Shown in pieces: positions 1 through 50,941 of a stretch of DNA of 64,000 bases. Location of the stretch: contig OY987251.1 in NCBI GenBank assembly GCA_963920765.1, forward strand, positions 14,945,219 through 15,009,218. The letters are read 5' to 3'. Position 1 is the stretch's first letter; every line of letters begins with the position of its first letter. Under the pieces are notes generated by a model. It ran no database searches. It was not told where the DNA came from and saw only the letters and a list, made by a program, of their open reading frames with translations. The stretch comes from Ulota crispa (Eukaryota > Streptophyta > Bryopsida > Orthotrichales > Orthotrichaceae). The translations under genes and the position numbers were made by a program.

Positions 1-112
1 CTCTATGAGGTGCCTCCTGCCACATGCTCTCTCTCCAATGCTAAGTACCCCACCTAGCATATCTCCTTTGGCCTAGAGCAAACTCTTAATGCTCTATTCC
101 AACCTTTCAACA
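1..112 (-). repeat. 3' LTR of copia copy A (cut by the window edge)
   Basis: The LTR starts (minus strand) with TGTTGAAAGG at 112, directly after a purine-rich tract at the end of the pol frame. It matches 5232-5343 almost completely. The rest lies to the left of the window. Confidence 0.9.
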
Positions 113-3100
113 CTCCCACTTTGCGAATGGCCAAAGTCCCCAAGGCCCATGGCTCTTGTCAAACGCTCATGTCTATCCCGCGTCAACGCCTTTGTCATCA
201 CATCTGCCAACATGTCCTCAGTTGGGCAATACTCCAATGTGATGCTTCCCTTCTCCACCTTCTCCCTCACAAAGTGGTGTTGCACCTCGATGTGCTTTGT
301 CCTCGCATGGTGCACCGGGTTCTTGGCAAGAGCTATGGCACCTTGGTTGTCACACAAGATCAACGTGCCCTCCACGTCCTCACACCCCACATCCTCCAAG
401 AGCTGCCTCAACCATATGGCCTCTCTCGTGCAATGGCTCGCCGCCATGTACTCTGCCTCCGTTGTGGATAAAGCCACCGTGGGTTGCTTCTTGCTACTCC
501 ATGATACCATGCCCTCTCCAAGGCTAAATGCATACCCCGTGGTGGACTTTCTGTCGTTGGCATCGCCAGCCCAATCTGCATCGCAATACCCCATCAAGCG
601 TATGTGCCTCCCTCCCAATTGCAACTTCACATGAGAAGTGCCCTTGAGGTACCTCATAATCCTCTTCACCGCCATCCAATGACTCCATCCCGGCCTCGCC
701 ATATGTTGGCTCACCGTGCTAATGGCAAAGGCCAAATCAGCCCTTGTGGCCACCATGGCATACATCAAGGATCCAACCGCTGATTTGTAAGGCACACTCA
801 CCATCCTTGAAGCATCCGCATCATACTCCTCGTTGCTAAGCTTCACCAACTTCACCTTGGTGTCCAATGGAGTGCCAATGGGTTTGCAATCCTCCATGCC
901 AAACCGCTTCAGCACCTCCTCCACATACTTGGTTTGGCTCATGGTGATGGTCCTCGCACCTCGATCTCGGGCAAACTCCACTCCAAGGCAATAGTGCAAT
1001 TCCCCCAAGTCCGTCATCTCGTACTCCGCTTCCAACTTGGCCTTCAATGCACCCATGGTCTTCACGTTGCTGGAAAGAATGATCAAGTCATCAACATACA
1101 CAAGCACAAGCATCACATCGGCTCCCACTTGTGTGAAATATAAGCTATGGTCAGCCACACTCCTCTCAAAGCCAAAATCCAAAAGACTTGCATCAATCTT
1201 TTGGTACCATGCCCTCGATGTTTGCTTCAGCCCGTATAAGGACTTTGCAAGTTTGCAAACTAAGTGCTCATGACCACGTTGCACAAACCCCTTGGGTTGC
1301 TCCATGTAGATGTCTTCCTCCAAGTCGCCGTTGAGGAAGGCCGCCTTCACATCCATTTGGTGCATTTCCAAGTCCAATGAAGCTCCAAGGGCCACAACAC
1401 ACCGTATGGTGGTAAACTTGGCCACGAGAGCAAAGGTCTCGTTGAAGTCCACTCCTTGGACTTGAGAGAACCCCCTTGCCACCAACCTTGCCTTGTGGCG
1501 CACAATCTCCCCCGTGGCATCCCTCTTAGTCTTGAACACCCACTTGCATCCCACGGCCTTGCAAGATGGAGGAAGGGTGGTCAACTCCCACGTGCCGTTG
1601 GCATGGAGGGAGTGGTACTCCTCCTCCATGGCTGCCTCCCACTTGCTTGCATCCCGAGACTCCAAGGCCTCTCTAAGTGTGGTGGGGTCATGAACAACAG
1701 CCACATTAGCATGATCCGAGTTCAAAGATGGTTGAGGGAAGATGTGGTTCTTCCACCACTCCCCCAACGGCTTGCTTACCCTTGTGGACCGCCGCACACC
1801 TCCCACGTGTTGGCTTCCTCCCACTTCAGCTCTTAGAGCAATGCCGTGTGCCTTCTTCTTCTTTGTGATCTTCTTGGGCTTGGAGCCGTCATCACCTTGG
1901 CTTGCACTTGCATCCTCCACAAGGTCACCATCTCCATCTACAAGGTCACCATCTCCATTTTCAAGGGGCTGGTCCTCATCGTTTCCGTCATCATCATCGC
2001 CACCATGCAAAGGCGTTGGAGGTGAGTCCACAACAAGGTCACCACTACTCCCACTTGGACCCAACTCCAAGTCTCCCTGCAACTCTCCTTGCTCACAGAA
2101 AGTCACATCACAACATCGAATGATCTTTTTGGACTCCAAACAAATGAGCCTATATGCCTTGGAGCCCTCACAATATCCCAAAAACAAACACCTCACCGCT
2201 TTTGCATCAAGTTTGGTCCTTGATGCATCCGGGATCTTGGCATATGCAACACACCCAAACACCCTTATGTGAGCCACGGAAGGCCTCCTCCCACTCCACG
2301 CCTCTTGTGGAGTTTTGCCATCCACCGCACTAGTGGGGCATCGATTGCGAATGTACACCGCGTTGCTCATCGCCTCGGCCCAATACTCCAACCCAAGCTT
2401 TTGGCCATAGAGCATGCTTCTAGCCATCTCCACAATGGTACGATTGGCCCTCTCAGCCACTCCATTTTGCTGCGGCGTATGTGGAGTTGAGGTTTGGTCC
2501 ACAATACCTTGGGTCTTCAAATAGGCCTCGAATTGGTTGGAAGTGTACTCCCCGCCGTTGTCGGACCGCAACACCTTCATGGAGCACTCCGCCTCCTTCT
2601 CCACCAAGGCCTTGAACTCCTTGAAGCGATCAAAACACTCGCTCTTGGCCTTGAGAAGGTACACCCACACCTTTTTTGAAAGGTCGTCAATGAAGGTCAA
2701 GAAATACCTTGCCCCACCCAATGACGTGGTCTTCATGGGGCCACACACATCTGAATGCACAATGCCCAACACCTTGGTGGCACGTGTGGCACCATCCTTT
2801 GGAAAGGAGTGCCGTTGTTGCTTGCCCTCAATGCAACCCTCACAAGCATTGGGCAAGCCATCACCATGAGATTTGGGAAGGTCAAGGCCACTCACCAAGC
2901 TTGGAAGAGCCCTCAAACTTTGTACATTTAGGTGCCCCATGCGTCGATGCCACAAAATCAGCCCATCCTTGGTAGAAGTGGCAACTTGGGCACTCTCTCC
3001 TCCATGCACAACCTTGCACCGCAAAAGATACAAGTTGCCCTCTCGTGTTGCCATGGCTTGGGTGTCTCCATTGAGAGACCTCACAATGCACCCAAAACCT

Positions 3101-5060
3101 CCAAATTGAACATTCAACCCTCCCTCCACTAGCTTGCTCACCGAAAGGAGGTTGCTTTGCAACTTGGGCACATATAACACATTTTTGAACCGAATGCGCT
3201 TGGTGCATCCTTCAACAAGGGTGTCCACCAAAATGGACCCCCTTCCAAAGGCTTGGAGCACCAAGTCGTCACCCATGAACACCTTCCTTTTCGCAATGGC
3301 CTCAAAGGTGTCAAAATGAGCTCTATGGGGTGACATGTAGGTGGTAGCTCCAGAATCCATGATCCAATCACCCTCGAAGTGCAATGGACCATCATGAGAG
3401 GCCATGAACGCATAGTCCTCACCACTCTCTTCTACCTTGGCTTTATTGGCCTTCTCACCCTTGCCACTCTTGCGTTTATAGCAATTACGAGCAAAGTGGC
3501 CCGGTTTGCCAGAATGGAAACATAGAAGGGGCTCACCTTGAACCTTGGTTGAATCTCCACCACTCTTGTGGCGAGCAACCAATGCCGCACTCTCCGTGGC
3601 CACCATCTGATGCTCCTTCTTCCTGGTCACTTCATGCATCAACCGCGACGTCACGTAGGTGAGGGTGAGCTCCTTGATGTCCTTGGTCTCCATGGCCACA
3701 ATCAAGTTCTCATAAGATGGTGGCAAGCTCTCCAAAATGGTCATGACAATGTCCCCTTGCGTCACGGGCACATCAAGGGCCTCAAGTTGGTCCGCAAGAG
3801 TCTTCACCTTGTTGATGTGTTGCAAGAGGTCATCGGTCTCTTGCATCTTCATAGTGAAGAACTTGCGCCTCAAGAACAACACATTGGCCAAGCTCTTGGT
3901 TTCGTGGATGTTGCGTAGGGTCCTCCATGCTTCCGCAGCTCCCTTGCAAGACTTGACGTGTTGGATTTGTGCATCCACCATGTGAGTGCACAAGATGCGA
4001 AACGCCGTCCTCTCACGCTTTTTGAAGGCCGAGATGACCTTGGGGTCACTCACACTTGAAGGAGGCGTCTCAGTGCCCTCCACAATGTCCCAAAGATCCT
4101 TCTCATCAAGGATCATCTCCATTTTGAACTTGAACAAGGAGAAATTGTCTCCATTGAATTTGTCCACAACACGGGGTGTCTCACCCTCATAGGCGGCCAT
4201 GGCTAAAGTATGCAACTCAACCACCTCTCAAACAAATCTCTAGCTCTCTATGCACACAAAGGGGCTGAAGTATGCAACTCAACCACCTCCCAAGCAAACC
4301 CTAGCTCTCTCCACACACAAGGGACTGAAGTATACAACCCAACCCTCAAAGGAGCACAAGATCTCCCAAAATGTGAGGTTATCACTCAAACCTCACCCTC
4401 AAACTCACTCCTTGCAATTTCAGCCCACTTTGAGCAAATACTATGCATCCACTTGAGCAAACAACCTCAAGCAAGGGTAGAAACCAACTAAAGCAAGTAC
4501 AAACTCACAAATCACCTCTTTGTGCTTCAAACAAGCACTTTGGTGGTGCAACTCCACCCTTAGCAACTCCACACCTCCAAAAACTTGTGCAACACCAAAT
4601 GGACCTCCAAATAAGCTTCGAAGTGGATCAATTCCTCCGATATGATAGATCAGATCCTCCAACAAGCTCCAAAAAGGTCCACACTTTCACAAACTCGAAT
4701 TTGGTGCTCCACCAAGGTAAATGAGGATCAGCCACTCTCCAAGAGGTAAAACAAGATCTCCAAAGACTCCAAAAGGCATGCAAAGAGAGATGAAGCTCTT
4801 CAAAGGTCCTCTCCCACCACAAATGCACCCCAAACCATGAAACAAGCACGAGTAGTCCTCCAAATGCTCCACAAGATAGGACAAGTGCTGAAGTAGCTCA
4901 AATGACAAGCAATCTCACTACAAAAACACCCCTAACACTAAAGGGAAGCTAAAGAAGTCCTCCAAGTGCACAAGGTCGAAATCTAAGGGCTGATGTACCT
5001 CAAATGTGATCTCCACTCACCATAATGCACCTCCACACTCTAAGTCATGGGCCCATAACC

Positions 5061-5343
5061 TATTGAAAACATAGGGAAGATAGAAGAGCAAAGGCACACA
5101 TGGTATACTCAAATGCATAAGATACAAATGGAAGAGATGAGAGGGTCACCCAACCCTATCATCTATGTACTCTCCCAATAACTCTCCCTTCACCTAACCA
5201 TATGGGATAACCACACTCATGGGCTGATCCTCTTTATGAGGTGCCTCCTGCCACATGCTCTCTCTCCAATGCTAAGTACCCCACCTAGCATATCTCCTTT
5301 GGCCTAGAGCAAACTCCTAATGCTCTATTCCAGCCTTTCCACA
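5061..5343 (-). repeat. 5' LTR of copia copy A
   Basis: A 283-bp LTR running on the minus strand from TGTTG-like to CAATA. The ends form a short inverted repeat (TGTTGAAA and TTTTCAATA). It abuts copy A's leader on the left and copy B's RT coding sequence on the right. Confidence 0.9.
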
Positions 5344-7116
5344 GAAGGCACGAGTGCAACTCCCGCAAGTCCGTCATCTTGTACTCTGCCTCCAACTTGG
5401 CCTTTAATGCACCCATGGTCTCCACGTTGCTAGAGAGAATGATCAAGTCATCAACATACACAAGCACAAGCATCACATGGGCTCCCACTTGTGCAAAATA
5501 CAAGCTATGGTCAGCCACACTGTTCTCAAAGCCAAAATCTAAAAGACTTGCATCAATCTTTTGGTACCATGCTCTCGATGCTTGCTTAAGTCCATACAAG
5601 GACTTTGTGAGCTTGCAAACTAGGTGCTCATGACCACGTTGCACAAACCCCTTGAGTTGCTCCATGTAGATGTCCTCCTCCAAGTCGCCATTGAAAAAGG
5701 CCGTCTTGACATTCATTTGATGCATCTCCAAATCCAACGAAGCTCCAAGGGCCACAATGCACCGTATGGTGGTGAACTTGGCCACCGGAGCAAAAGTCTC
5801 GTTGAAGTCCCCTCCTTGGACTTGAGAAAATCCCCTTGCCACCAACTTTGCCTTGTGACGCACAATCTCTCCTGTGGCATCTCTCTTAGACTTGAACATC
5901 CACTTGCATTCCACGGCCTTGTGAGATGGAGGGAGGGTGGTCAACTCCCACGTGCCGTTGGCATGAAGAGAGTGGTACTCCTCCTCCATGGTTGCCTCCC
6001 ACTTGCTTGCATCCCGAGACTCCAAGGGCTCTTCAAGTGTGGTCAAGTCATAAACAAGAGCCACATCTGCATGATCTGAGTTAGAAGATGGTTGAGGAAA
6101 AATGTGGTTCTTCCACCACTCCCCCAAAGGCTTGCTTACCCTTGTGGACAGTCGCACGCCTCCCTCACGTTGAGTACCTCCCTCTTCAGCTCTTGCAACA
6201 ATGCCTTGTGTGTTCTTCTTCTTTGTAACTTTCTTGGGCTTGGAGCCGTCATCACCTTGGCTTGCACTTGCATCCTCCACAAAGTCACCATCTCCATGCG
6301 CCTTGGCCTTGTTGGCCTTCTCACCCTTGCTACTCTTACATTTGTAGCAATTACGAGCAAAGTGGCCCGGTTTGCCACAATTGAAGCATAGAAGGGGCTC
6401 ACCTTGAGTTTTCGTTGAATCTCCACCACTCTTGTGACGAGCAACCAACGCCGCATTCTCCGTGGCCACAATCTGATGCTCCTTCTTCCTTGTCATTTCA
6501 TGCATTTATCGCGACGTCACGTAGGTGATGGTGAGCTCCTTGATGTCTTTGGTCTCCATGGCCACAATCAAGTTCTCATAAGATGGTGGCAAGCTCTCCA
6601 AAATGGTCATGACAATGTCTCCTTCTGTCACGGGCACATATAGGGCTTCGAGTTGGTCAGCAAGGGTCTTCACCTTGTTGATGTGTTGCAAGAGGTCATC
6701 CATCTCTTGCATCTTCATGGTGAAGAACTTGCGCCTCAAAAACAACACATTGGCCAAGCCCTTGGTTTCGTGGATGCCGCATAGAGTCTTCCATGCTTCC
6801 GCAGCTCCTTTACAAGACTTGACGTGTTGAATTTGTGCATCCACCAAGTGAGTGCACAAGATGCAAAACGCGGTTCTCTCACGCTTTTTGAAGGCAGAGA
6901 TGACCTTGGGGTCACTCTCACTTGAAGGAGCCGTCTCATTGCCCTCAACAATGTCCCAAAGATCCTTCTCATCGAGGATCATCTCCATCTTGAACTTGAA
7001 CAAGGAGAAGTTGTCTCCATTGAACTTGTCCACAACACGGGGTGTCTCACCTTCGTAGGTGGCCATGGCTAGAGTATGCAAGTCAAGGAGATCTCAATGT
7101 CACAAGAAAATCGCAA

Positions 7117-7460
7117 GGGGCTGAAGTATGCAACTCAACCACCTCCCAAGCAAGTTCTAGCTCTCTCAACACTCAAAGGGATAAAGTGAGCAACTCAACC
7201 ACTTTCAATGCTAGCTAGCTCCAAGACAAGGGGCTGAAGTATGCAACTCAACCACCTCCCAAGCAAGTTCTAGCTCTCTCAACACTCAAAGGGATAAAGT
7301 GAGCAACTCAACCACTTTCAATGCTAGCTAGCTCCAAGACAAGGGGCTGAAGTATGCAACTCAACCACCTCTCAAGCAAATCTCTAGCTTTCTATGCACA
7401 CAGAGGGGCTGAAGTAATCAACTCAACCACCTCCCAAGCAAACCCTAGCTCTCTCCACAC
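7117..7460 (-). repeat. Tandem repeat in the leader of copia copy B, 113-bp unit
   Basis: The words GGGGCTGAAGTATGCAACTC and CTAGCTAGCTCCAAGACAA recur with a period of 113 bp, with units starting near 7117, 7230 and 7343. A diverged partial unit starts near 7403. Copy A has a shorter version of the same motif array at about 4207-4345. Confidence 0.85.
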
Positions 7461-8205
7461 ACAAGGGCTGAAGTATACAACCCAACCCTCAAAGGAGCAC
7501 AAGATCTACCCAAAAGGTGAGGTTATGACTCAAACCTCACCCTCATACTCACTCTTTGCAATTTCAGCCCCCTTTGAGCAAATACCATGCATCCACTTGA
7601 GCAAACAACCTCAAGCAAGGGTAGAAACCAATCTAAAGCAAGTACAAACTCACAAATCACCTCCTTGTGCTTCAAAGAAGCACTTTGGTGATGCAACTCC
7701 ACCTTTAGCAATTCCAAACCTCCAAAAGCTTGTGCAACACCAAATGGACCTCCAAAAAGGCTCCAAAGTGGATCAACTCCTCCAATATGATAGATCAGAT
7801 CCTTCAACAAGTTCTAACAAGGTGCACACTTCCACAAACTCGAATTTGGTGTTCCACCAAGCTAAATGAGGATCAGCCACTCTCCAAGAGGCAAATCAAG
7901 ATCTCCAAAGACTCTAAAGGGCATGCAAAGAGAGGTGAAGCTCCTCAAAGGTCCTCTCTAACCACAAATGCACCACAAATCAAGAAACAAGCAAAAGAAG
8001 TCCTCCAAATGCTCCACAAGGTAGGACAAGTGCTGAAGTAGCTCAAATGAGAAGCAATGTGACTACAAAAACACCCCTTACACTAAAGAGTAGCTAAAGA
8101 AGTCCTCCAAGAGCACAAGGTCGAATTCCAAAAGCTGATTTAGCTCAAATGTGATCTCAACTCACCACAATGTACCTCCACACTCATAGAAGTGGGCCCA
8201 TAACC

Positions 8206-8488
8206 TATTGAAAACAGAGGGAAGATAGAAGAGCAAAGGCACACATGGTATACTCAAATGTATAAGATACAAATGGAAGAGATGAGAGGGTACCCAAACC
8301 CTCGCATCTATATACTCTCCCAACGACTCTCCCTTCACCAAACCATATGGGATAACCACACTCAAGGGCTGATCCTCCCTATGAGGTGCGTCCTACCACG
8401 TGCTCTCTCTCCAATGCTAAGTACCCCACCTAGCATATCTCCTTTGGCCTAGAGCAAACTCCTAATGCTCTATTCCAACCTTTCAACA
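8206..8488 (-). repeat. 5' LTR of copia copy B
   Basis: A 283-bp LTR, the same length and ends as the other copies. It runs on the minus strand with its outer end at 8488, directly against plus-strand RT coding sequence. Confidence 0.9.
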
Positions 8489-9745
8489 TTGATCATTCTT
8501 TCTAGCAACGTGGAGACCATGGATGCATTGAAGGCCAAGTTGGAAGCGCAGTACAAGATGACGGACTTGGGAGAGTTGCACTATTGCCTTGGAGTGGCGT
8601 TTGCAAGAGATCGAGATGCGAGGACCATCACCATGAGTCAAGCGAAGTATGTGGAGGAGGTGCTTAAGCGATTTGGCATGGAGGATTGCAAACCCATTGG
8701 TACTCCATTGGACACCAAGGTGAGGTTGGTGAAGCTCAACATGGAAGAATATGATGCGGATGCTTTAAGGATGGTGAGTGCGCCATACAAATCAGCGGTT
8801 GGATCATTGATGTATACCATAGTAGCTACACGGGCTGATTTGGCATTTGCTATTAGCACGGTAAGTCAGCACATGGCAAGGCCGGGATGGAGTCATTGGA
8901 TGGCGGTGAAGAGGATCATGAGATACCTCAAGGGCACCTCTCATGTGAAGTTGAAATTGGAAGGAGGGCACATACGCTTGATGGGATACTGTAATGCAGA
9001 TTGGGCTGGCGATGCCAATGACAGGAAGTCCACCACGGGTTACGCATTTAGCTTCGGAGAGGGCATGGTGTCATGGAGCAGCAAGAAACAATGCACGATG
9101 ACTTTATCTACAACGGAGGCAGAGTGCATGGCGGCGAGACATTGCACAACAAAGGCCATGTGGCTAAGGCAGCTCTTAGAGGATGTGGGGTGTGAGGACG
9201 TGGAGGGCACGTTGATCATGTGTGACAATCAAGGTGCCATAGGTCTTGCCAAGAACCCGGTGCACCATGCAAGGACGAAACACATTGAGGTGCAACACCA
9301 TTTTGTGAGGGAGAAAGCGGAGAAGGGAAGCATCACAATGGAGTATTGTCCAACTGAGAACATGTTGGCGGATGTGATGACAAAAGCGTTGGTGAGGGAT
9401 AGGCATGAGCATTTGACGAGAGCAATCGGCATTGGGGACTTTGGCCAATCGCAAAGTGGGAGTGTTGAAAGGTTGGAATAGAGCATTAAGAGTTTGCTCT
9501 AGGCCAAAGGAGATATGCTAGGTAGGGTACTTATCATTGGAGAGAGAGCACGTGGTAGGATGCACTTCATAGGGAGGATCAGCCCTTGAGTGTGGTTATC
9601 CCATATGGTTTGGTGAAGGGAGAGTGGTTGGGAGAGTATATAGATGAGAGGGTTTGGGTACCCTCTCATCTCTTCCATTTGTATCTTATACATTTGAATA
9701 TACCGTGTGTGCCTTTGCTCTTCTATCTTCCCTATGTTTACAATA
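8489..9745 (+). mobile_element. Ty1/copia copy C, right-hand part
   Basis: Plus-strand fossil of the same family. The visible part starts inside the RT active-site region (LIILSSNV), continues through RNase H (DWAGDAND) and ends in a 3' LTR at 9463-9745. The left end is the point where copy B is inserted, so the 5' part should lie beyond the left edge. The visible stretch is well preserved. Its LTR end at 9745 directly abuts internal sequence of copy D, so C sits inside D. Confidence 0.88.
9463..9745 (+). repeat. 3' LTR of copia copy C
   Basis: A 283-bp LTR, TGTTGAAAGG to CAATA. It contains a TATATAGA motif followed at once by a 10-bp inverted repeat (GATGAGAGGG and CCCTCTCATC, around 9653-9680). 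Confidence 0.9.
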
Positions 9746-11919
9746 GACACACCTCCAACGCTTTCGGATGATGATGATGATGATGGAGACGATGAGCACC
9801 ACCCCCTCAAGGATGGAGATGGTGACATTGTGGAGGATGCAAGTGCAAGCCAAGGCGATGAGGGCTCCAAGCCCAAGAAGGTCACAAGGAAGAAGAATGC
9901 ACAAAGCATTGCTCCAACAGCTGAAGTGGGAGGCACCCAACATGTGGGAGGCGTGCGGCGATCTATAAGGGTAAGCAAGCCTTTGGGAGAGTGGTGGAAG
10001 AACCACATCTTTCCTCTACCATCTTCCAACTCAGATCATGCAAATGTGGCCCTTGTTCATGACCCCACCACACTTGAAAAAGCCTTGGAGTCTCGGGATG
10101 CAAGCAAGTGGGAGGCAGCCATGGAGGAGGAGTACCACTCTCTTCATGCCAACGGCACGTGGGAGTTGACCACCCTTCCTCCATCTCGCAAGGTCGTGGG
10201 ATGCAAGTGGGTGTTCAAGTCCAAGACAAATGCCACGAGAGAGATTGTGCGTCACAAGGCAAGGTTGGTGGCAAGGGAATTCTCTTAAGTGCAAGAAGTG
10301 GACTTCAGCAACACTTTTGCTCCCGTGGCCAAGTTCACCTCCATACGGTGCATTGTGGCCCTTGGAGCTTCGTTAGATTTGGAGATGCATCAAATGGATG
10401 TAAAAACGGCCTTTCTCAACGGCGACTTCAAGGAGGACATCTACATGGAGCAACCCAAGGGGTTTGTGCAACGTGGTCATGAGCACCTAGTTTGCAAGCT
10501 CACAAAGTCTTTGTATGGACTAAAACAAGCATCGAGTGCATGGTACCAAAAGATTGATGCAAGTTTTTTGGATTTTGGCTTTGAGAACAGTGTGGTTGAC
10601 CATAGCTTGTATTTTGCACAAATGGAAGCCCATGTGATGCTTGTGCTAATATATGTTGATGATTTGATCATTCTCTCTAGCAACGTGCAGACCATGGGTA
10701 CATTGAAGGCCAAGTTGGAGGCGGAATACAAGATGACGAACTTGGGAGAGTTGCACTATTGCCCTGGAGTGGAGTTCGCAAGAGATCCAGGTGCAAGAAC
10801 CATTACCATGAGTCAAGCCAAGTATGTGGAGGAGGTGTTGAAGCGGTTTAGCATGGAGGATTGCAAACCCATTGGCACTCCATTGGACACCAAAGTGAAG
10901 TTGGTGAAGCTTAGCATGGAGGAGTATGATGCGCATGCTTCGAGGATGGTGAGTGTGCCATACAAATCAGCGATTGGGTCATTGATGTATGCCATGGTGG
11001 CTACAAAGGCTGATTTGGCCTTTGCCATTAGCACGGTGAGTCAGCACATGGCAAGGCCGAGATGGAGTCATTGGATGGCGGTGAAGAGGATCATGAGGTA
11101 CCTCAAGGGCACCTATCATGTGATGTTGAAATTGGGAGGAGGGCACATACGCTTGATGGGGTATTGTGATGCAGATTGGGCTGGCGATGCCAATGACAAG
11201 AAGTCCACCACGGGGTACGCATTTAGCTTTGGAGAGGGCATGGTGTCATGGAGCAGCAAGAAGCAATGCACGATGGCTTTATCTACGACAGAGGCAGAGT
11301 ACATGGCGGCGAGCCATTGCACAACAGAGGCCATATGGCGAAGGCAACTCTTGGAGGATATGGGGTGTGAGGACGTGGAAGGCATGCTGATCATGTATGA
11401 CAATCAAGGTGCCATAGCTTTTGCTAAGAACCGGTGCACCATGCGTGGGCGAAACACATGGAGGTACAACACCATTTTGTGAGGGAGAAAGTGGAGAAGG
11501 GAAGCATCACAATGGAGTATTGCCCAACTAAGAACATGTTGGCAGATGTGATGACAAAGGCGTTGGCGAGGGATAGGCATGAGCGTTTGAGAAGAGCCAT
11601 GGGCATTGGGGATTTTGGCCAATCGCAAAGTGGGAGTGTTGAAAGGTTGGAATAGAGCATTAGGAGTTTGTTCTAGGCCAAAGGAGATATGCTAGGTAGG
11701 GTACTTATCATTGGAGAGAAAGCACGTGGTAGGAGGCACTTCATATGGAGGATCAGCCCTTGAGTGTGGTTATCCCATATGGTTTGGTGAAGGGAGAGTG
11801 GTTGGGAGGGTATATAGATGAGAGGGTTCGGGAACCCTCTCATCTCTTCCATTTGTATCTTATACATTTGAATATACTATGCGTGCCTTTGCTCTTCTAT
11901 CTTCCCTATGTTTTCAATA
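9746..11919 (+). mobile_element. Ty1/copia copy D, right-hand part
   Basis: Plus-strand fossil of the same family. It begins in the acidic, low-complexity spacer between integrase and RT and continues through RT (YVDDLIIL) and RNase H to a 3' LTR at 11637-11919. It is broken, with a few breaks. Its left boundary is the LTR of copy C and its right LTR abuts internal pol sequence of copy E. It therefore looks interrupted by C and itself inserted into E. Confidence 0.88.
11637..11919 (+). repeat. 3' LTR of copia copy D
   Basis: A 283-bp LTR with the same ends and the same TATA-plus-hairpin arrangement as the other copies. Confidence 0.9.
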
Positions 11920-12962
11920 TTCTATTGGACACTAAGGTGAAGTTGGTGAAGCTTAGCATGGAGGAGTGTGATGCGCATGCTTCAAGGATGGTAAGTGTGT
12001 CATACAAATCAGCAGTGGGATCATTGATGTATGCCATGGTGGGTACAAGGGCTGATTTGGCTTTTGCCATTAGCACGATGAGCCAGCATATGGCAAGGCT
12101 GGGATGGAGTCATTGGATGGCGGTGAAGAGGATCATGAGATACCTCAAGAGCACCTCTCATATGAAATTGCAATTGGAAGGGTGGCACATTCGCTTGATG
12201 GGATATCGTGATGCAAATTGGGCTGGCAATGCCAACGACAAGAAGTCTACTACGGAGTATGCATTTAACTTTGGAGAGGGCATGGTGTCTTGGAGTAGCA
12301 AGAAGCAATCTACGGTGGCTTTATCCACAACAGAGGCTGAGTACATGGCGGCAAGCCATTGCACAGAAGAGGCCATATGGCTGAGGCAGCTCTTGGAGGA
12401 TGTGAATTGTGAAGACGTGGAGGGCACGTTGATCTTATGTAACAATCAAGGTGCTATAGCTCTTGCCAAAAACCCGGTGCACCATGCGAAGACAAAGCAC
12501 ATCAAGGTGCAACACCACTTTGTGAGAGAGAAGGTGGAGAAGGGAAGCATCACATTTGAGTAGTGCCCAACTGAGGACATGTTGGCAGATGTGATGACAA
12601 AAGCGTTGGTGAGGGATAGACATGAGCGTTTAACAAGAGCCATGAGCATTGGGGACTTTGACCAATCGCAAAGTGGGAGTGTTGAAAGGATGGAATAGAG
12701 CATTAGGAGTTTGGTTTAGGCCAAAGGAGATATGATAGGTGGGGTGCTTAGCATTGGAGAGAGAGCATGTGATAGGAGGCACCTCATAGAGATGATCAGC
12801 TCATGAGTGTGGTTATTCCATATGGTTAGATGAAGGAAGAGTGGTTGGAAGAATACATAGATGAGAGGATTTGGGAACCCTCTCATCTCTTCTATTTGTA
12901 TCATATATATTTAAGTATACCATGTGTACCTTTGCTTTTCTATTTTCTCTATGTTTTCAATA
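11920..12962 (+). mobile_element. Ty1/copia copy E, right-hand part
   Basis: Plus-strand fossil. It begins near the RT/RNase H boundary, directly after the LTR of copy D, carries RNase H and ends in a 3' LTR at 12680-12962. It is broken, and its LTR and coding part look more diverged than those of A to D, as expected for an older host element in a nest. The right LTR end abuts Ty3/gypsy pol sequence (copy F). Confidence 0.85.
12680..12962 (+). repeat. 3' LTR of copia copy E
   Basis: A 283-bp LTR, TGTTGAAAGG to CAATA. It appears to be the most diverged of the five full-length copies by eye. Confidence 0.88.
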
Positions 12963-13904
12963 GAAGTAAAGTCAATGATCATACTTGCGGATGACCAAGC
13001 TAAGTGCTACTACAACGAGCATGTGAGACAGCAGCCAAATTTCAGTAATGGAGATAGAGTCTTACTTTGTCAAGAAAACATCACTACGCACGCGCAGTTT
13101 GATCACAAATTTTTAAGTCCTTTTCATGTTTTGGCAAAGCTCTTTGATGTTACTTAACGACTCAGTTTACCATTGTCGCTTTGCATTCACAATGTATTTC
13201 TTGTCTCTCTTTTGGAGGCATGTCGACCGGACATTATCCTTGGGCGAGCACAAGCGCCTCCATCGCCAGTAACAACACCTAAGGGCGATACAAAGTATGT
13301 GGTTCATTAGATCAAGGATATCTGGATGCATCGACGGTGATGGCAGTTGTTGGTCTCCTGGGCAGGTTAAAAGCCGAAAGAGGACTCATGGGAGCCATTA
13401 TAGCATGTAGCAAATGCACAAGACATGATTGATAATTTCCATTCTCAACACTCGGGCATGGTTCACCCTTTAGTTTTCAAACGTTGAAACTTTTGAATAA
13501 CCACAACCCTCTCAAACACTCAAGCTTCTAAGGGGGAGGGTTATGACTTTGTCATAACATCTAGCACATTCAAAAACTAGGGTTAAACTGGTGCTAGACA
13601 AGTACTCGTAGCGTGTGAACATGAAGCAAGCTTAGACTTGGATATATAAGCACGGTTAGGATAAGGTTGTTGCACGCAACCTTCTATAACACCAGCTTTG
13701 AGGCACAGGAGAATACAGCTGATGTGTGACCTAATCAATGTGTGTATATACTAGTGCTTGATTCTCATTTACCTATACATGATTCTTGTTTGCTTTTAGC
13801 TGGTCTCGTTTGCTTTCCTTGGGGTTAAATTGCTACAAGAGCCAGCATGCGGTAGAATCGTGAGAGCGTTGACAATCTACAACGTTGTTGTTGGAGAATT
13901 GTCA
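12963..13904 (+). mobile_element. Ty3/gypsy element F, 3' end
   Basis: After copy E the plus strand encodes a peptide typical of the C-terminal part of a Ty3/gypsy integrase (ADDQAKCYYNEHV, then NGDRVLLCQENI and FLSPFHVL, about 12985-13150). A weaker continuation follows. A purine tract (AAGGGGGAGGG, about 13530-13540) precedes a putative 3' LTR (13541 to about 13904) with a TATATAAG box. It is broken, with several breaks, and looks old. Copy E appears to have inserted into it. Confidence 0.65.
13541..13904 (+). repeat. Putative 3' LTR of the gypsy element F
   Basis: It follows a polypurine tract and starts with a small palindrome (TTATGACTTTGTCATAAC). It holds a TATATAAG box near 13653-13660 and could end at the CA near 13904. 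No second copy lies in the window, so the right boundary is inferred. Confidence 0.45.
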
Positions 13905-18700: not shown

Positions 18701-21700
18701 ATTTAAAAACTCCTAATCTTGTTTATATTTTATTAACTGAAGTTTGAACATGCAAAATAGAAGGAAATAGAAAAGCTACATTTGCAAGAGCATTTACCAG
18801 AATACAATGAACAAGCTGGAAAAGTTGATGAAGTCTCAAATTGGTTAGTAGTTACTACAAGGAAACACTGTCAATTTGGTCATTTTTTTGTCAGATAGGA
18901 TATTTTTTGTCAATTGGGACACTTTTTGTCAATTTGGACACACTTAGTCAATTCGGATGAGTCATTTAGATTTTACATTTTTTGTTATCATAATCTCTCA
19001 TGTAATAACAAGGAAACAATGTCTAAAGTAACACGTCCAAATTGACAGGTCCAAATCAACAAAAAATGACCAAATTGACAATGTTTCCTTGTAGTGCGTC
19101 ACTACACGGGAGTAGTGTCAATTTGGTCATTTTTTGTCAATTAAGTCATGCTGATTTGGACATTTTAGTCAATTTGGACATGCCATTGTAGACAATTTTT
19201 CTTGTAGTATATAGATGCAATATATGCTTCCATTTTTTTGAATTGCTACTTTATAGATTCTTCTTTGCATATAGTGGAGTAAGCTCAGAAGAAAGTGTAG
19301 AAGAGGCACATATGGCTGAACGCAGCTCTTCAGACGAGCCTATATTAGAGGTATTTTAGAACTAGTTTTACTTTATGTAAATGATGTATTGATTTATTTT
19401 AATAATGTAGGCACTATAAGGTTGGACTATAGTAATTATGTTAAAATTTTGAAAAAACATTTTACCACTTTTTATCGTGGATTGAATGTTTAACACCAAC
19501 ATGGTTTGTTGTTGATCCTCAATGTTGCTACTAACTATAATATCTAGAATGACTTCTATTTTTGAAGGACTTGGTTGAGAATTGTGTTGACTACCATAAA
19601 AAAGAATTTGGAACTCAAACATTGCCTTCACTCAAAAATATAATGGAGATGAAAGTAGATATGCAAAGCTTGTGCAAAACTCTAGATTTGAGACCACCTA
19701 AGCATTGTGAGCTTTCTATTTGCATATTGAGTTTAACTTGACGTTCAACAATCACAATTTAGATGTATGAGATTGTTCCAAAATTTAGGACACAATAATA
19801 GAAATATTCAATGATTTGTTGTTTTGATGAGATAAAAAGATATAAGTTGTAATGTAGTTAAAAAATTCTACTACAAGAAAAACCGTCCAAAATGACAAAA
19901 ATATGTCCAAATCAACATGGCCAAATTTACAAAAATTGTCCAACTTGATAGTTTTTTATCATTTTGAACACATTTGGTCAATTTGGACATGCCAATTAAG
20001 ACACAATTTCTTGTAGTGTCCTTATCTTGGTTTTGCATTTTCAATTCAATTTTTGAAATTTTCAAATATTAATTTTAGTTAACCAATATGATGGCTTTGA
20101 AACATTTAGTAGTAGAACTCTCCTTTGTTATGAAGCACAATAGTACATAATGTTTTTACAAGCTATGAGTTGTTTCTGTATTCAATTCAATGTCCAAATA
20201 TTATTTGGAAGAATGGTATACTTGCACCACAAGTCATCTAAATATAATTTAATTATGATATTTGGCCATTAAGTCTTGATTGTGGGTAGGTTCTGGAGCT
20301 AGCAGTAAAAGAAATGAGAAGAAGCCACGACTCTTATCAGCAGTGTTTCCATGGTGGCGTACAAAAAATGCTTCTAAATCTCTCCCTCCAACAAATGGGA
20401 TGCATGATGGTCAGCCCTACTGCTAAAACAGTTTATAACTCCAATTTAAAATTTTAATCCTCCTTTTTTGACACATTAATTAACTCATTAATTATAACTC
20501 ATGTATAATAAACTTTATGATTGTGGTGCTCCTTTGATACTTGTACATGAGATCACAATACAGTATTGTAAAAATGTTCAGACTCAATATACCATACTAA
20601 GTATAAACAATCAATTTATTAAATTGAATTTTTAATCTAGAAGCATGTTTTTGTATTAAAACATTTTCATGTCTCAATTTATCATTTATTGGAATTTTCA
20701 AGTAGTTTTGTAAACATTGTATACATTTATTGAATGGAAATTTAAATTGATATTATTTGCATGTGATACTCAGATACATTCATTCCAACAATGATAGCTC
20801 CAAACTTGATCTCTAATATGGATGGAGATGATACTTATGTACATGTTCTACCAACAGTATCATATAAGAATGGATCATCAACATTGTTGCCAATCATAAC
20901 ACGTCCAATGTGTCATGCTAATGGGTTGCACCCTCTTTTAAAAAATAATGAAAGTGAATGTAGAAAAACAGCAATGGCATTAAATAATTATCCAAATCAA
21001 CACTCATTGATAATTGAACATCCTCAAACTTTTTTGAAGTTATTTCCTACTTTATGCAATCAAAATCAACAAGTGCCAAAATCACCAATATGGAATACAA
21101 TCCATCAAAGTAACAAACCTTCATTATCAACCTCAATTGCCAAAAATGTTAGTTTGCTTTCTCCCATGAAACAAGCTTCATTTCAAGAATCAATTACAGT
21201 GGAAAATTTGGAACATACAAATTTAAACCATCATAAAGTTCAAGATGTGTATCTAAGTATGGAATCTAAACCTTCAATACAAAATGAAATTCATCAAAAT
21301 ATTAATAAAGAGAGAAGCAATGATTATCATAATTTGAATTCTCGGTTTGGAGCACTAGTTAAAGAATATAATGAAGCTAGAAGTAATGTTGAGCAACTTT
21401 CGAGAGTACAAAATAACGATCAAAAAGCTTTGAACAACCAATTTGGAGCATTAGTGAGAGAATATAATGAAGCTAGAAATTTTGCATCTACACAAAATGA
21501 AGAGAAGAAAATGAGAAACCAAAACATGAGCAACAAACAAGACTTGAGAGACAAAGTCTATATTGAACAAAATCTACAAATCATAAATAATGAATGCAAC
21601 AATGAAAATATTGCAAAGAAAAAATATAATGACTATTATGATTGTAAAATAGCAAGCTTTGAAAACAATGAACAATTATCAAGTTTATATAATGATGATA

Positions 21701-24700
21701 GTGAGCAAGAACAAACCATCAAAAGCAGCAAACAAATAATGCAAGTTCATAATAGTAGTTGTGAAGAAACAAAAAACTTTCAAAACAAAGATATGCAAAA
21801 AAAGCAAAATAATTGGTACAATCAAATGGACTATCAAAACAATGAACAAGCATCAAAAAAATCTCATAACAATCATGATAAAATGATAAGTTTGCAAAAC
21901 GACAAAGAGCCGCCAATGACTAAAACTAATGATGGTATTGAAGTGAACAATTTCCAACATAATATACAAATATCAAACATGCATAGAAAAGGTAATGACC
22001 AAACAAAAAGTTATCAAACTATTGATGATGAAAAAATAAAAGGTTTAGGTTCTTTTATTGATTTTAGTCCTTTGAATGGTTTAAGCAATTTGTGCAATTT
22101 GAATCCAAAGGAACTAAAGCTTCAAAGAGAAAATGAATTGTTTGCAAAAATGGAAAAAAAATTTCAAAGAAACACAAGATTAGAAACAAATAATAACAAA
22201 CAAGATACAAAAAATCAAAATATTCATGAGCAAACTTCAAAACTTGAACAAAAACAACAAGAAGAAAAATCATATAAGATTCCAAAGATTGACATCATGA
22301 ACAATGATGAAGAAGTCATAAAGGTAAAAAATACAAATAATAAAAACAAAAGAGACAACTCATCACCAATTAATAGTGATTGTGGACTAAATGGTTACAA
22401 TGAACTTGTAACTACACATTCAAGTTTATCAAATAATATTGAATATAATCTGGATACAACACCAAATTCTATGGCACTTTCAAAAAAACAAAAATGGCTC
22501 GCACAAAAAAATAGCAATGAACATGAATCAACAACAAAGATTCAAACACTAAGAAATGAATCTAGAAAGCAACCACTGCTTGATAGACCTTCCTCACCAA
22601 AGAAATCTCATGTTTCTATTCGAGAAAGGATTGCTCAAGCAGCTAAGCAAGCCATTGATGATTTGGTTCCAGAGCCTTTAACAGAATCTCAAATGTCAGA
22701 GGCAGGTCTTCTTTTGAAGCTAGTTGATGTTTATTATGTTCAATGTCTTTATAGTAAAGAATGGAAGCTACGTGACAAAGCCTTGCAATATTTCCTTCAA
22801 GAAATAAACAATAAACACATATTTGGTGATGCACTTGACGTATTTAGGTAAGCATTTATTCAATTTGATAATTGTAAAATCAAAAATAGCAATGAGTAAA
22901 AAAAAACCTTATAATTTCCAATAAAATAACTCATAAAACTTAAGATTCGTAACTCAAATATAGAATTTATTATGGATTCATAAAATGTATTATTAATTTT
23001 TACATTCAAACTTTTTTAATATTAAATTTTGGATGATATTTTCATTTCAATTACTTCAATTGAATATTTTCAATAATGATGTTCAAAACTTTACTTTTAA
23101 TCTCAAGTGATACCCAAAAATCCACTAGATTTCTATTAGATGTTTGTAAACTAACAAGATATAATTTAAAAATTTCAGGACAATAAACAAAGTAATTTTG
23201 AAAGGTTTAAATGACAAAGTATCCAACATATTTAATATTGCATTACAGGTTTGCATAGTTTGATTTTAACAAATTTCAAATTGTACACATATCAATAAAT
23301 AAAAATAGAAACTATTTTGTTTTATTTAGTCTTAATACTAGCATATTTATGTAATACTTGCTTATAGTATTTTTGGTTTGCAAATAAATGGTGCTTTTTG
23401 AATTTTTGCTTTTAACCACATTGTTGTGTTGTAATGAATATTATAATTCAAAACAACAATTGAACTATGTGTAATCAAGATTTTATAACCTCTTTTAAAT
23501 TCCTTAAATTTGAAATTATCCTACAAGTTGCAAAAAGCCCCATTCTATATGCTTTTAAAGATTTATCCTAACTCTTATTCAATGTGCACCCTTTTGAAAA
23601 TAATGGAGTAAACCTTGCATTTAATTCATTAACAATGAGTTGGCTTCTTTCCAAAATTAGTAAACTAATTTCACCTTTGTTACTCATGTTTGGCTAAAAT
23701 TTAGTCAACAAACTTTAATCATTATTAATAATTTTATATTTTAACTAAATGTAATAAAAATGCATGCAAAATATGAATTTGTTCTTTGAAAGTATGTTAC
23801 TTGAATCAGAATTCCTATGTCGTACTAAAAAAGAATATAAAATAGAGCAAAAAGAAAAACTACACATAGTCAAATGCAACTCAATAATATATATATATAT
23901 ATATATATACATATATATAGTCAATTTTACAACTAATAAATCCAAACATTGCATGAGTCTTTCTTATTTATTTCTATGTATAGAGAGATGTGGACAAAAA
24001 GATCCATTCCTCACCCAAACCCTTCCCATGCAATCAATTCTTCACTAAATCTAAAACCAATTACATATTTCAAAAGCCTAGAAAGTAGAAAGGGGGACAA
24101 TATGCCTTAAAATTTAAAAAGTATACTATTCCAACTCTATGCCTTTAACCCATGCCAAGTGCAATTTTGCACTATCAATTTATGATGTATTCATCAACCT
24201 CTACTCTTCCACCAATATTGTTTTTAAGCTTTTATCCACCTTTAAAAGCTTGAAATTGCCACAACTCAAGCAAGCCTCTTGTAGATAGAAAGAAGGACGC
24301 AATGCACTAAAATTTGACATGAATCAAATCAAGAGAGGTGTTAATAAATTTTTTTCAAAAAAACATCAAATGAGGATTAAATGTTTTTAATATTATTACA
24401 AATCCACCATCAATCTATCACTAATATGTTCTCAATTTATTCTACAAAATTTCAAAATATGTAATTACTAATTTTAGATTTAGTGAAGTGTTAATTGCAT
24501 GGAAGGGGTTTTAGTGAGAAATGGATCTTTTTGTCCCCATCTCAATCTATATTTACATATGTATAATGTAGACTGAATTGATTGTTTTTATCATCTACAT
24601 GTATTTTGTAGTTATCTCGAGTTTTTATTATTCGATATGCAAGCGGAATTCCAACCACTGATCTTCGAAATTATGTTAATGATTTGATTAACATCCTACT

Positions 24701-44006: not shown

Positions 44007-44717
44007 AGGGTGGCTTCACACTATGGCCAAAGGTCGAGAGGCTGTCGGTTTGCACCAATTAGATTGTAAAAAATCCAAAGTCTAGCCATTCAACCTTTCA
44101 CACTAGTGGTCAAATTTCAAAGGTCGTCATCCTCCAAATGTTTACATGGCAGCACTTTATCATTCAAGGTTGACGGCCTCTCGGCAATAGTTTGGGTTTG
44201 CTAAGCAAATATGGAGACCCAAATTATGGTTGAGAGACCATCACATTGTTTTCATAAAATATTCAAAAGCTTATAAGATCTTGGCCATTGGATTTGGAAG
44301 GTCTCATAAATGTTATGGCTTTGGACTTTGGGCTCAGCCTTTGGAGGCTTCACATATGGCCATTCAAGTTGAGAGGCCATGAAAGTTTATGACTTTGGAC
44401 TTTGGGCTCGGCCTTTGGAGGCTTCACATATGGCCATTCAAGTTGAGAGGCCATGAAAGTTTATGACTTTGGACTTTGGGCTTGGCCTTTGGAGGTTTCA
44501 CACTATGGCCATTCAAGTTGAGAGTCCGTGGAAACTCATTGCCAAGAGTTTGGCCTTTGGACTTGGCCTTTGGAGGCCTCACACTAAAATCGACCAAAGG
44601 TATCAAAAACAGTATTTTAATACATATTTTCAACCCATTTTGTTGGCCTCTCACCAAAATTTGACCACTCAATCTCACGACCTCTCGACTTGGCCGGTCA
44701 TAGTGTGAAGCCGCCCT
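44007..44717. mobile_element. Non-autonomous DNA element, ends AGGGYGGCTTCACACTATG, copy 1
   Basis: About 711 bp. The left end is AGGGTGGCTTCACACTATGG and the right end is the complement of AGGGCGGCTTCACACTATGA. The inside is full of the word family TTTGGACTTTGGGCTCGGCC and holds a 74-bp tandem repeat. There is no transposase frame. A second, more decayed copy lies at 57997-58508. I cannot assign a superfamily because no clean target duplication is visible. Confidence 0.75.
44315..44510. repeat. Tandem repeat, 74-bp unit, about 2.6 copies
   Basis: The unit beginning TTGGACTTTGGGCT starts at 44321, 44395 and 44469, a constant 74-bp spacing. The first two units are nearly identical and the third has drifted. 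It lies wholly inside the element at 44007-44717. Confidence 0.85.
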
Positions 44718-48332: not shown

Positions 48333-50941
48333 TTACCGTCCGTACCAACCTTTGGCAGGTGGAACTTCGTTTCTGGCACTGGAGTCGCCATTCATCAGCC
48401 TGTCCAGCACAACATTCAAGTCCACAGAGGTGCCATTTTCGGTCAGCCTGCGCACAACAGCCCGAACCTGGTCTCTGCCAAACCCCATGCCTGCTACTTT
48501 GTCGATCACTTCGTCCACGGAGACGCGATTGGCAGGCACAGGGGCAGGTCCTCCGTCCGACCCCATGGAGGCTTGAACTGGTCGAGCGGTAGGAAGGTTT
48601 TGGTAACCCCCACCAGGGCCAGCAGGCGCGGGACTCACAGGCTGAGCCATGCGGTACTGCGGAGGAGCATACTGGTTATACGCCTGCGCTGCATCCCGGC
48701 CTTGCGGAGGTTGCGCTTGCGGTGCTTGAGGATGGTAGGCACCGGGCATAGCAGGTGGACCGCCAGCGTTGCGAGGAGAATCGAACATCTGACCCCCACC
48801 CGGTCCATGCTGCTGCTGCTGCTGCTGCTGCTGGCTGGGCGGCACTTGTTGCATTGGGCCCATGGATGAAGGTGGCGGTGGAGCAGGGAGCGGCAAGAAA
48901 CGAAGCTCGTAGCCTCCAGGCACCGGTGGAGGGGCGAGCTCTTGGTTGTACTTCCCCTGCGGTGTTCCGTACGGACTGGAAACCTCTTGGTTGAGGGGAC
49001 TGTAATGCTGCTGCGACATGGCTGCACCTGGGCCCGGTGGTCCTGGTTGCTGTTGCTGACCGTAGAAAGGTTGCATTTGACCGGAATGTGGAGGTGCCCC
49101 TGGTGGGGCCTGCTGAGCTTGGTATTGAGGTTCCGGGGGTGCCTGCGCCTGTAACTGCTGATGCCCTGGAAGAGGATGCGGGGCCTGGGACTGAGAACTT
49201 TGCGGCGGCATCTGTGCAGGCTGAGGGGGGCCCTGCAGCTGCAGTTGATGCTGCAGAGGGGGGTGCACGCCTTGCATCTGCTGCTGTGGAAGAGGAGCGT
49301 TTTGTCCCTGCGCTTGCAGCTGTGGGGCGAGCTGTCCCTGTGGATGCATCTGCTGGTGCGTGGGTGGTCCTTGCATTTGGAGCTGCTGCTGCTGCTGATG
49401 ATGCAGCGGCGGGGGCAGACCTAGCTGCTGCAACTGGAGTCCTTGCGAGGGGAGCTGACCCTGAAGCTGCTGTTGCTGTGGCTGCATTTGCTGAGGGGGC
49501 TGGGGCAATTGCTGAAGAGACGGTTGAAGCTGTTGGGGCTGCTGCTGCTGCAAGAACGGAGCTGGTTGTGCAGGTGGAGCCTCCACAAGTTTCACTGTTG
49601 ACATCGGCAGTGATGCTTCAGTGGTCTCAACAGCGGGCGCCGAAACCACCGGTGGGGGAATCTCACGCTTAGCACTCAGCTGTAGCTTTTCAAGCTTCAT
49701 CTGCTCTTCAGCAATTTCCTGCTTATCGCGCAATACCTGCACACTTCGTTGAACCTGCAATATGTGGCACAAAGCATCAAATTCAGTAGAGTAACAGGAA
49801 CGTATTCTATGTCAAAACTTTCCATGGTGATACCTTATATGCATGCAAGAAGCAGAAACCCTAACAGCACCACAGATACGAAACACCATGGAGATGGGGT
49901 CGCATACTTCAGAAATTATATACTAGAACCCATAGTTGAGCGCAAACCTCTGCTTCATCAGGACCACGAATACCGACGATCACCAATCGGGCAAAACGGT
50001 GGAAGTCCCAGCAGAGGATGACGAAGAATATAAACCAAATCTACTGTGAAGAATTACCAAAGTATGGGTAGAGTTGATGAGAAAAACAGTGTCACCTCTC
50101 GAATCATGTTCTCCAAGGATCTCAATTTTCCATCAGTTGCACCAAAGTTATCAGCAGCCTCAACTTTGATTTTATCGACTGAGTGCTCCATGCGCAAGCT
50201 ATTGGATTCCAATTGTGTCAGTCGGCCGCTCATGCCTTCCAAAACCCGCAATAAGTTGTCTGCATACTTCTTCATTGTCCGTTCCACAGCCGCCACAGTT
50301 GCGGTTTCGACTGCTTCCTTGTCGGGACGCACATTCAATTCATACGAAGGAGCATGATTGCGCTGCTCCACCAATACCATCTCACAATGTCAAATTTAAC
50401 TGAATACAAACACCCCAAGAAACAAAGAAAAAGGACATTGCCATTCCTTACGATTTGACTACTATTGCAGTCAAAGCGCTCGAAATCGAAGCATCCGCAA
50501 TTTATTGATTTAGGACTAGACAAAAAATCAACCTACGTGAGAGTAAACAAATATAGCTGTAAACTTTGATCATGGCTTACATAGTCATGGTTAACAAGCT
50601 CGCAACAATCGCTACCAATAAAAGAAGCTTTGAAGACATCAGGTCAACGTCAAATTTCGCGATAGTAATGAAAGAAAAAAAAAGGGCAGGAAACGTACAG
50701 AATTTGCAGGTTGAGACTGCTGCCACCCGCGCAGGCTATCATCCGCCTTCCCCTTACCCCCTGTCTCCACGATCGGCTGGAAATCCATGCTCGGCAAGAT
50801 GTCATCGCCGGAAAAATACACAGGCGTAGAATTTTGCGCGCCATGGTACCCGGAGTTCGAGTTAGGTTGCAGCAAATCGAAGAAAGGCTCATCCTTCGAA
50901 TACGGATTCCCACTCGACGACGAAGATCCTAGATGATCCAT
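48333..50941 (-). CDS. DUF1421 protein of the FLOE1 type, Q/P-rich and prion-like
   Basis: Three minus-strand exons, 50941-50699, 50362-50096 and 49754-48333, join in phase 0 to 643 aa. The N-terminus (MDHLGSSSSSGNPY) is Ser/Asp-rich. Residues ~85-220 are predicted coiled coil (DNLLRVLEGMSGRLTQLES, LRDKQEIAEEQMKLEKL). Residues ~240-570 are Gln/Pro-rich disorder with a CAG-encoded Q run. The C-terminal ~50 residues are the DUF1421 core (DKVAGMGFGRDQVRAVVRRL, DLNVVLDRLMNG), which looks UBA-like. The same architecture defines Arabidopsis FLOE1 (At4g28300), a condensate-forming protein that responds to water content in seeds. Orthology with FLOE1 rather than a paralogue is an inference. GC-rich codon use contrasts with the AT-rich surroundings. 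Confidence 0.9.
48808..48833 (-). repeat. (CAG)n run encoding polyglutamine
   Basis: About 26 bp of pure TGC/CTG on the plus strand, giving a CAG-encoded run of 8 Gln in the DUF1421 protein. The other Q stretches in this protein use mixed CAA/CAG codons and are interrupted by P, L, M and H. Confidence 0.85.

Follow-up and report, generated by a model that had tools for sequence, protein, structure and literature searches.

The first 12,962 bases of a 64,000-nucleotide stretch of the moss Ulota crispa (contig OY987251.1; C10:14945219-15009218 on chromosome C10, hereafter the window) belong to a single Ty1/copia family of long terminal repeat (LTR) retrotransposons. By analogy with other mosses, this block is strongly suggested to form the right-hand border of a centromere-type cluster of a single RLC5-like copia family. 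Repeated insertion of family members into one another is genuine. We consider it probable (roughly 80%) that centromere-type targeting makes nests of such insertions, and that gene conversion and unequal exchange then strip them. A first-pass annotation had instead read the block as a six-level nest of retrotransposon fossils.

The reference for mapping all fragments is element A (minus strand, window -170..5343, 5514 bp; negative positions lie left of the window start, and 200 kb of this left flank was read). A hardly deserves the word fossil. It contains a stop-to-stop frame of 1377 codons (94-4227, minus), whose Pfam domains follow the copia order with integrase before reverse transcriptase (RT): Retrotran_gag_2, rve, SH3_retrovirus and RVT_2. 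Its two LTRs differ at 8 of 283 sites. With LTRs, gag, and integrase ahead of RT, A is a Ty1/copia LTR retrotransposon. The family LTR is 283 bp long (TGTTG...CAATA), and GCAAAGTGGGAG, which we read as the polypurine tract, precedes the 3′ LTR.

The family is concentrated at one place on every chromosome. An RT search listed 150 matches of 512 candidates, 99 of them at 85% identity to A or higher, and 84 of these 99 close listed matches fall within one 180-kb interval per chromosome. All 11 of the 11 chromosomes carry such a cluster, with 4-12 close listed matches each. This is the pattern of the moss RLC5 type, in which each chromosome has one site with a dense copia cluster. In contrast, when a dispersed repeat that borders the block (host F) was searched in the same way, 1 of 150 listed matches, its own copy, lay in a cluster interval as judged by eye. 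On C10 the cluster consists of three family blocks (window -112.3 to -105.0, -76.1 to -58.4 and -3.0 to +13.0 kb), which cover 40.8 of its 125.3 kb (32.6%). A comparison of the flanks of these three blocks found no common sequence.

Target duplications provide direct evidence that copies insert into their own family. Complete copies were those with both LTRs in the match lists or in the stretches read, 14 of which (10 in clusters, 4 outside) were paired from their spacing and strand. The two outer flanks of each copy were compared, and a duplication was accepted at no more than 1 mismatch in 5 bp. The 5-bp target-site duplication typical of copia elements was present in 8 of 17 complete cluster copies (identical in 6 of 10 in one set, with 0-1 mismatch in 2 of 7 in the other) and in 3 of 4 outside clusters, leaving 9 and 1 without it. 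All 8 duplication-bearing cluster copies lie inside another family copy, one of them within the end of an LTR, and the halves of the host continue on each side with an overlap of about 5 bp. All 4 complete copies outside clusters lie in non-family DNA.

The 3′ junctions point the same way, with 31 of 50 usable junctions in clusters being same-family versus 0 of 13 outside. For this count, 67 of the 99 close listed RT matches were sampled; 11 others lie in the stretches of C9, C10 and C11 that were read, and the remaining 21 lay outside the rows covered. Four of the 54 cluster junctions sampled were left out, two because the LTR is common with the next copy (L074, L089) and two because there is no LTR end (L065, L087); L044, which sits in the end of an LTR, was reassigned from non-family to same-family. 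The first-pass annotation had placed all visible landing points in the integrase-RNase H half of the element. The four same-family points visible in the window do fall in that part, but this sample was small. The 39 3′-side landings used range from A-coordinate 302 to 5292 on both strands, and the integrase-RNase H part (A 2569-5231, borders chosen from Pfam positions) received 22 of them against 18.8 expected, with a four-zone test giving p = 0.06. Thus there is little sign of a general bias to this half.

It might be argued that the integration complex prefers the DNA of its own family, independent of centromeric chromatin. The same-family share of 31 of 50 does exceed the family share of the C10 cluster (32.6%; binomial p = 2e-5), and every one of the 8 copies with target duplications sits in family sequence. 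However, two denser stretches on C9 and C11, chosen for reading because copies are present in them, have a family share of about 80%, and 31 of 50 lies below that (p = 0.004), so the excess may simply reflect a target zone narrower than the whole cluster. Landing points are also scattered over the element on both strands, and the sampled junctions outside clusters are never same-family. We therefore regard an intrinsic preference of this kind as unlikely.

A second alternative is that there is no targeting, with insertion occurring at random and copies surviving only in gene-poor, little-recombining DNA. Selection against insertions in chromosome arms is plausible, and 15 of the 99 close listed copies do lie outside clusters. 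But clustering is strongest among the listed copies closest to A: clusters hold 22 of 25 at 95-100% identity, 44 of 49 at 90-95%, 18 of 25 at 85-90%, 5 of 21 at 80-85% and 4 of 30 below 80%, where identity to A is a rough indicator of age only and divergent matches may be other families. Slow loss from the arms predicts the opposite trend; thus the gradient favours targeting, and survival without targeting is very unlikely.

Insertion is followed by a second process, which was detected by comparing A with its twin, A2 (window -64946..-59414), located 60 kb away on the opposite strand. Over 5.5 kb, the alignment of the two copies has 16 mismatches plus 23 gap columns. Their RT domains are identical, and the next nearest is 2.3% off (20 rows compared). 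Fresh retrotransposition makes both LTRs of a copy alike. Here, 3 of 283 sites separate the two 5′ LTRs, fewer than separate each from its own 3′ LTR (8 in A, 5 in A2). A T at LTR positions 164 and 186 occurs only in the 5′ LTRs of A and A2 (2 of 96 rows at each position) and in neither 3′ LTR. Given that a fresh insertion carries like LTRs, these 5′-only variants mean that A and A2 have a common post-insertion history. All four flanks of the two copies differ, however, and the similarity stops at the LTR ends. This ending of the match led us to reject a joint duplication of A and its flanks. Six of the 16 mismatches lie in the LTRs, which make up 10% of the length (p = 0.004), as if exchange between A and A2 had not reached the ends. 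A and A2 thus show that sequence is exchanged as DNA between copies of one chromosome, and we infer gene conversion as the route.

Other copies show a related signal. In a comparison of about 225 bp of LTR among sampled cluster copies, the nearest relative was on the same chromosome for 26.2 of 65 copies versus a mean of 6.0 in shuffles (0 of 2000 as high), and 11 of 16 mutual nearest pairs were on one chromosome. On C1, two copies in opposite orientation have 99.85% identity over the 3.27 kb read, each with its own perfect target duplication. This pair is as conversion would leave it, and it may alternatively represent two recent insertions.

Together, these results suggest a course of events in the clusters. 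New complementary DNA copies would integrate mostly into one 100-180 kb site per chromosome, in keeping with the observed distribution, with integrase most likely recognizing centromeric (CENH3) chromatin. The analogy here is Tal1 of Arabidopsis lyrata, a centromere-integrating LTR retrotransposon for which the integrase C-terminus and CENH3 chromatin are reported to be responsible (PMC12859917). In contrast to Tal1, which is described there as landing in A. thaliana satellite repeats, the Ulota element often has the family itself as its target, and the part of the block inside the window has only two short tandem arrays. Because the target site is full of older family copies, most insertions would land in the family, at the scattered positions and with the 5-bp duplications described above; one dense cluster per chromosome explains much of the self-nesting. 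Later, same-chromosome copies would overwrite one another as DNA, probably by gene conversion as for A and A2, and unequal exchange would delete partner halves, leaving one-sided chains of LTR and interior sequence such as that seen in the window. A more far-reaching version is that array upkeep consists of self-targeted insertion followed by chromosome-local conversion, which replaces copies almost in full (about 5 kb in the case of A and A2, and inverted copies too) with the outer LTR ends bordering the exchange, so that each centromere evolves its own element versions. We put this forward tentatively, at slightly less than even odds.

Several points weigh against this account. Centromere identity is assigned by analogy with Physcomitrium patens and Sphagnum, and the designation RLC5-like comes from the description of the clusters rather than from sequence comparison with RLC5 of the Bryco clade. 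Besides the 15 close listed RT matches outside clusters, 9 of 17 complete cluster copies have no target duplication, and 2 of those 9 have non-family DNA on both sides. The case for conversion rests mainly on one fully resolved pair, A and A2, the one pair in which post-insertion mutations in common are combined with unlike flanks, as expected of interlocus gene conversion. This pair is not mutually nearest by 3′ LTR, that of A2 being 0.9% from a C1 copy. Nor did same-chromosome close pairs show a bias toward inverted orientation (7 opposite and 4 same, versus a background of 101 and 93). Finally, there is a 200-N gap inside the C10 cluster, and the published Ulota crispa assembly, cbUloCris4.1, is reported to have 742 gaps (PMC11803377).

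These gaps, and inverted arms in the same cluster as the 200-N gap, raise the question of whether misjoined repeats gave rise to false one-sided junctions. Correct assembly is supported at the 8 complete copies that carry target duplications, all of which lie on chromosomes other than C10. In addition, apart from A and A2, the copies diverge from A by about 10%. One explanation considered for the absent duplications of A and A2, a false inversion between them, would give matching flank pairs, A+1652 with A-2732 and A+302 with A-4359; these are different host sites and do not match. Assembly artefact is thus a highly improbable source of the junctions. The inverted arms lie at C10:14832891-14840264 (window -112327..-104954), where they are 99.89% alike over 2.7 kb and surround a solo LTR without target duplication; the gap has about 490 bp repeated on both sides. 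This locus is partly an assembly break and perhaps a true palindrome.

The chain of fragments in the window is as follows, with coordinates in window positions.

-170..5343 (begins at C10:14945048-14945049), minus strand: element A, complete copia copy; 3′ LTR -170..112, interior 113-5060, 5′ LTR 5061-5343.
5344..8488, minus strand: fragment B; 5′ LTR 8206-8488 and interior to A-coordinate 4359, with 1910-3406 missing and the 3′ end absent; adjoins the 5′ LTR of A at 5343.
7114..7487, no strand assigned: tandem duplication in the leader region of B, with units of about 60/113 bp.
8489..9745, plus strand: fragment C; A-coordinates 4258-5514, 3′ LTR 9463-9745.
9746..11919, plus strand: fragment D; A-coordinates 3316-5514, 3′ LTR 11637-11919.
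11920..12962, plus strand: fragment E; A-coordinates 4473-5514, 3′ LTR 12680-12962.
12963..13154, plus strand: host F; 64-codon piece of a dispersed repeat, gypsy label not confirmed.

Outer LTR ends are located at 5343, 8488, 9745, 11919 and 12962, exactly where the first-pass annotation had put its LTR/interior junctions, and mapping on A bears out its view that B is inverted relative to C. The first four junctions adjoin same-family interiors at A-coordinates 4359 (minus), 4258, 3316 and 4473, respectively; the LTR end at 12962 adjoins non-family DNA, and the family block stops there on the right. Both LTRs are present in A alone. The distance of each LTR to its nearest relative is 1.1% for A, 3.5% for B, 3.9% for C, 4.2% for D and 9.9% for E (29 other LTRs compared for E), and this climb is what an order with younger elements inside would give.

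A nest made by ordinary retrotransposition, with all host halves kept, would place the mirrored parts of B-E to the left of A, and these other halves are absent from the 200 kb read. Instead, A is followed on the left by one plus-strand 5′ piece (window -3012..-173, A-coordinates 1-2732) and then by non-family DNA. The missing part of B (4360-5514) was not found in this flank, and the 5′ piece does not extend far enough to continue directly into C, D or E. Among left-side junctions in the C10 cluster, none matches the target points 4359, 4258, 3316 or 4473. The two flanks of A correspond to separate host sites (A+2732 and A-4359), and its flanking 5-mers, CAAAG and GAAGG, differ at 2 of 5 positions; no target duplication was found at any of the three complete C10 copies (A, A2 and the copy at -76009..-70355). 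The full six-level nest is already refuted, and we give very little credence to any simple version of it, even though the junction order, orientations and LTR ends are as first described. Repeated same-family insertion, the broader proposal behind it, stands on the cluster-wide duplications and junctions, and the single junctions from A to E may each be one end of a true insertion. Autointegration of complementary DNA into itself was rejected for the landing of A, as A and its neighbours differ by about 10%.

Two LTR-in-LTR junctions were also observed on C10, at window -76009 (left junction) and -59112 (right junction). The host LTR is cut at 67 and the other piece begins at 56, giving an overlap of 12 bp rather than 5. 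The two junctions lie 17 kb apart and were not counted as a pair.

The outermost host, F, had been labelled gypsy. Its 64-amino-acid frame matched 0 Pfam families at E<=1, so this label was not confirmed; its 150 listed matches are spread along the chromosomes, which fits a gypsy relic without proving one.

A moss centromere made of a retrotransposon cluster is a known kind, and moss copia centromeres have already been described. In P. patens, RLC5/tRLC5 forms one copia cluster per chromosome, the proposed centromere, with cluster sizes of 64-221 kb (PMC7466625, PMC12885004). The Ulota clusters, likened to these by description, agree in being copia, in occurring once per chromosome of a moss, and in size (125 kb on C10). 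They differ in that junctions have been read with their target duplications and DNA-level exchange. In Sphagnum, at least one dense RLC5 copia cluster on each chromosome is taken as the centromere (PMC9946827). There, the dense copia cluster on every chromosome is alike, but the reported interpretation is backed by suppressed recombination in a pedigree, whereas that in Ulota comes from sequence alone. The closest precedent we found for exchange is maize, where marker segregation and population data around CRM2 are reported to indicate gene conversion in centromere cores (PMC2834711). Both cases concern non-crossover exchange in centromeres rich in centromeric retrotransposon; in Ulota, unlike maize, the evidence is LTR mutations common to two copies in one haploid genome. 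In a study of autoinsertions by plant LTR retrotransposons, 3′ untranslated regions are reported as the preferred sites (PMC6911290), whereas the Ulota landings spread over the element.

The species and the resolved exchange pair A/A2 look new; a literature search, limited to one collection, found nothing joining RLC5 with gene conversion or Ulota crispa with centromeres. It has long been asked how centromeres change when crossing over is suppressed. Centromeres of the RLC5 kind in mosses are small, and the two LTRs of each element serve as a clock, so that insertion, conversion and deletion become readable junction by junction in a haploid genome. In Ulota, sequence alone was enough to distinguish self-insertion from later DNA exchange.

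The clusters on C1, C2, C3, C5, C7, C8, C9 and C10 (8 of 11) lie in the outer tenth of their chromosomes (relative position >0.9 or <0.03), that on C7 being the most extreme. If the clusters are centromeres, most chromosomes would be nearly telocentric. C11 (6.3 Mb) is far smaller than the other chromosomes and yet has 12 of the 99 close listed RT matches; it may be the small m-chromosome of mosses. On C4, eight matches to light-harvesting chlorophyll a/b protein with equal or nearly equal scores lie within 0.4 Mb (C4:21.39-21.77 Mb), 0.5-0.9 Mb from the cluster. Comparison of one light-harvesting protein of this genome with PDB structures agreed with a moss source, 7xqp and 8htu being from P. 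patens.

Rfam and transfer RNA scans of the window found nothing. To the right of the family block, a tandem array outside the cluster (window 44313-44583) has 3.6 copies of a 74-bp unit. Reading frames at 20767-22848 (plus) and 48333-49811 (minus) have CEP104-like TOG and DUF1421 matches, and gene-like sequence begins some 8 kb away from the putative centromere edge.

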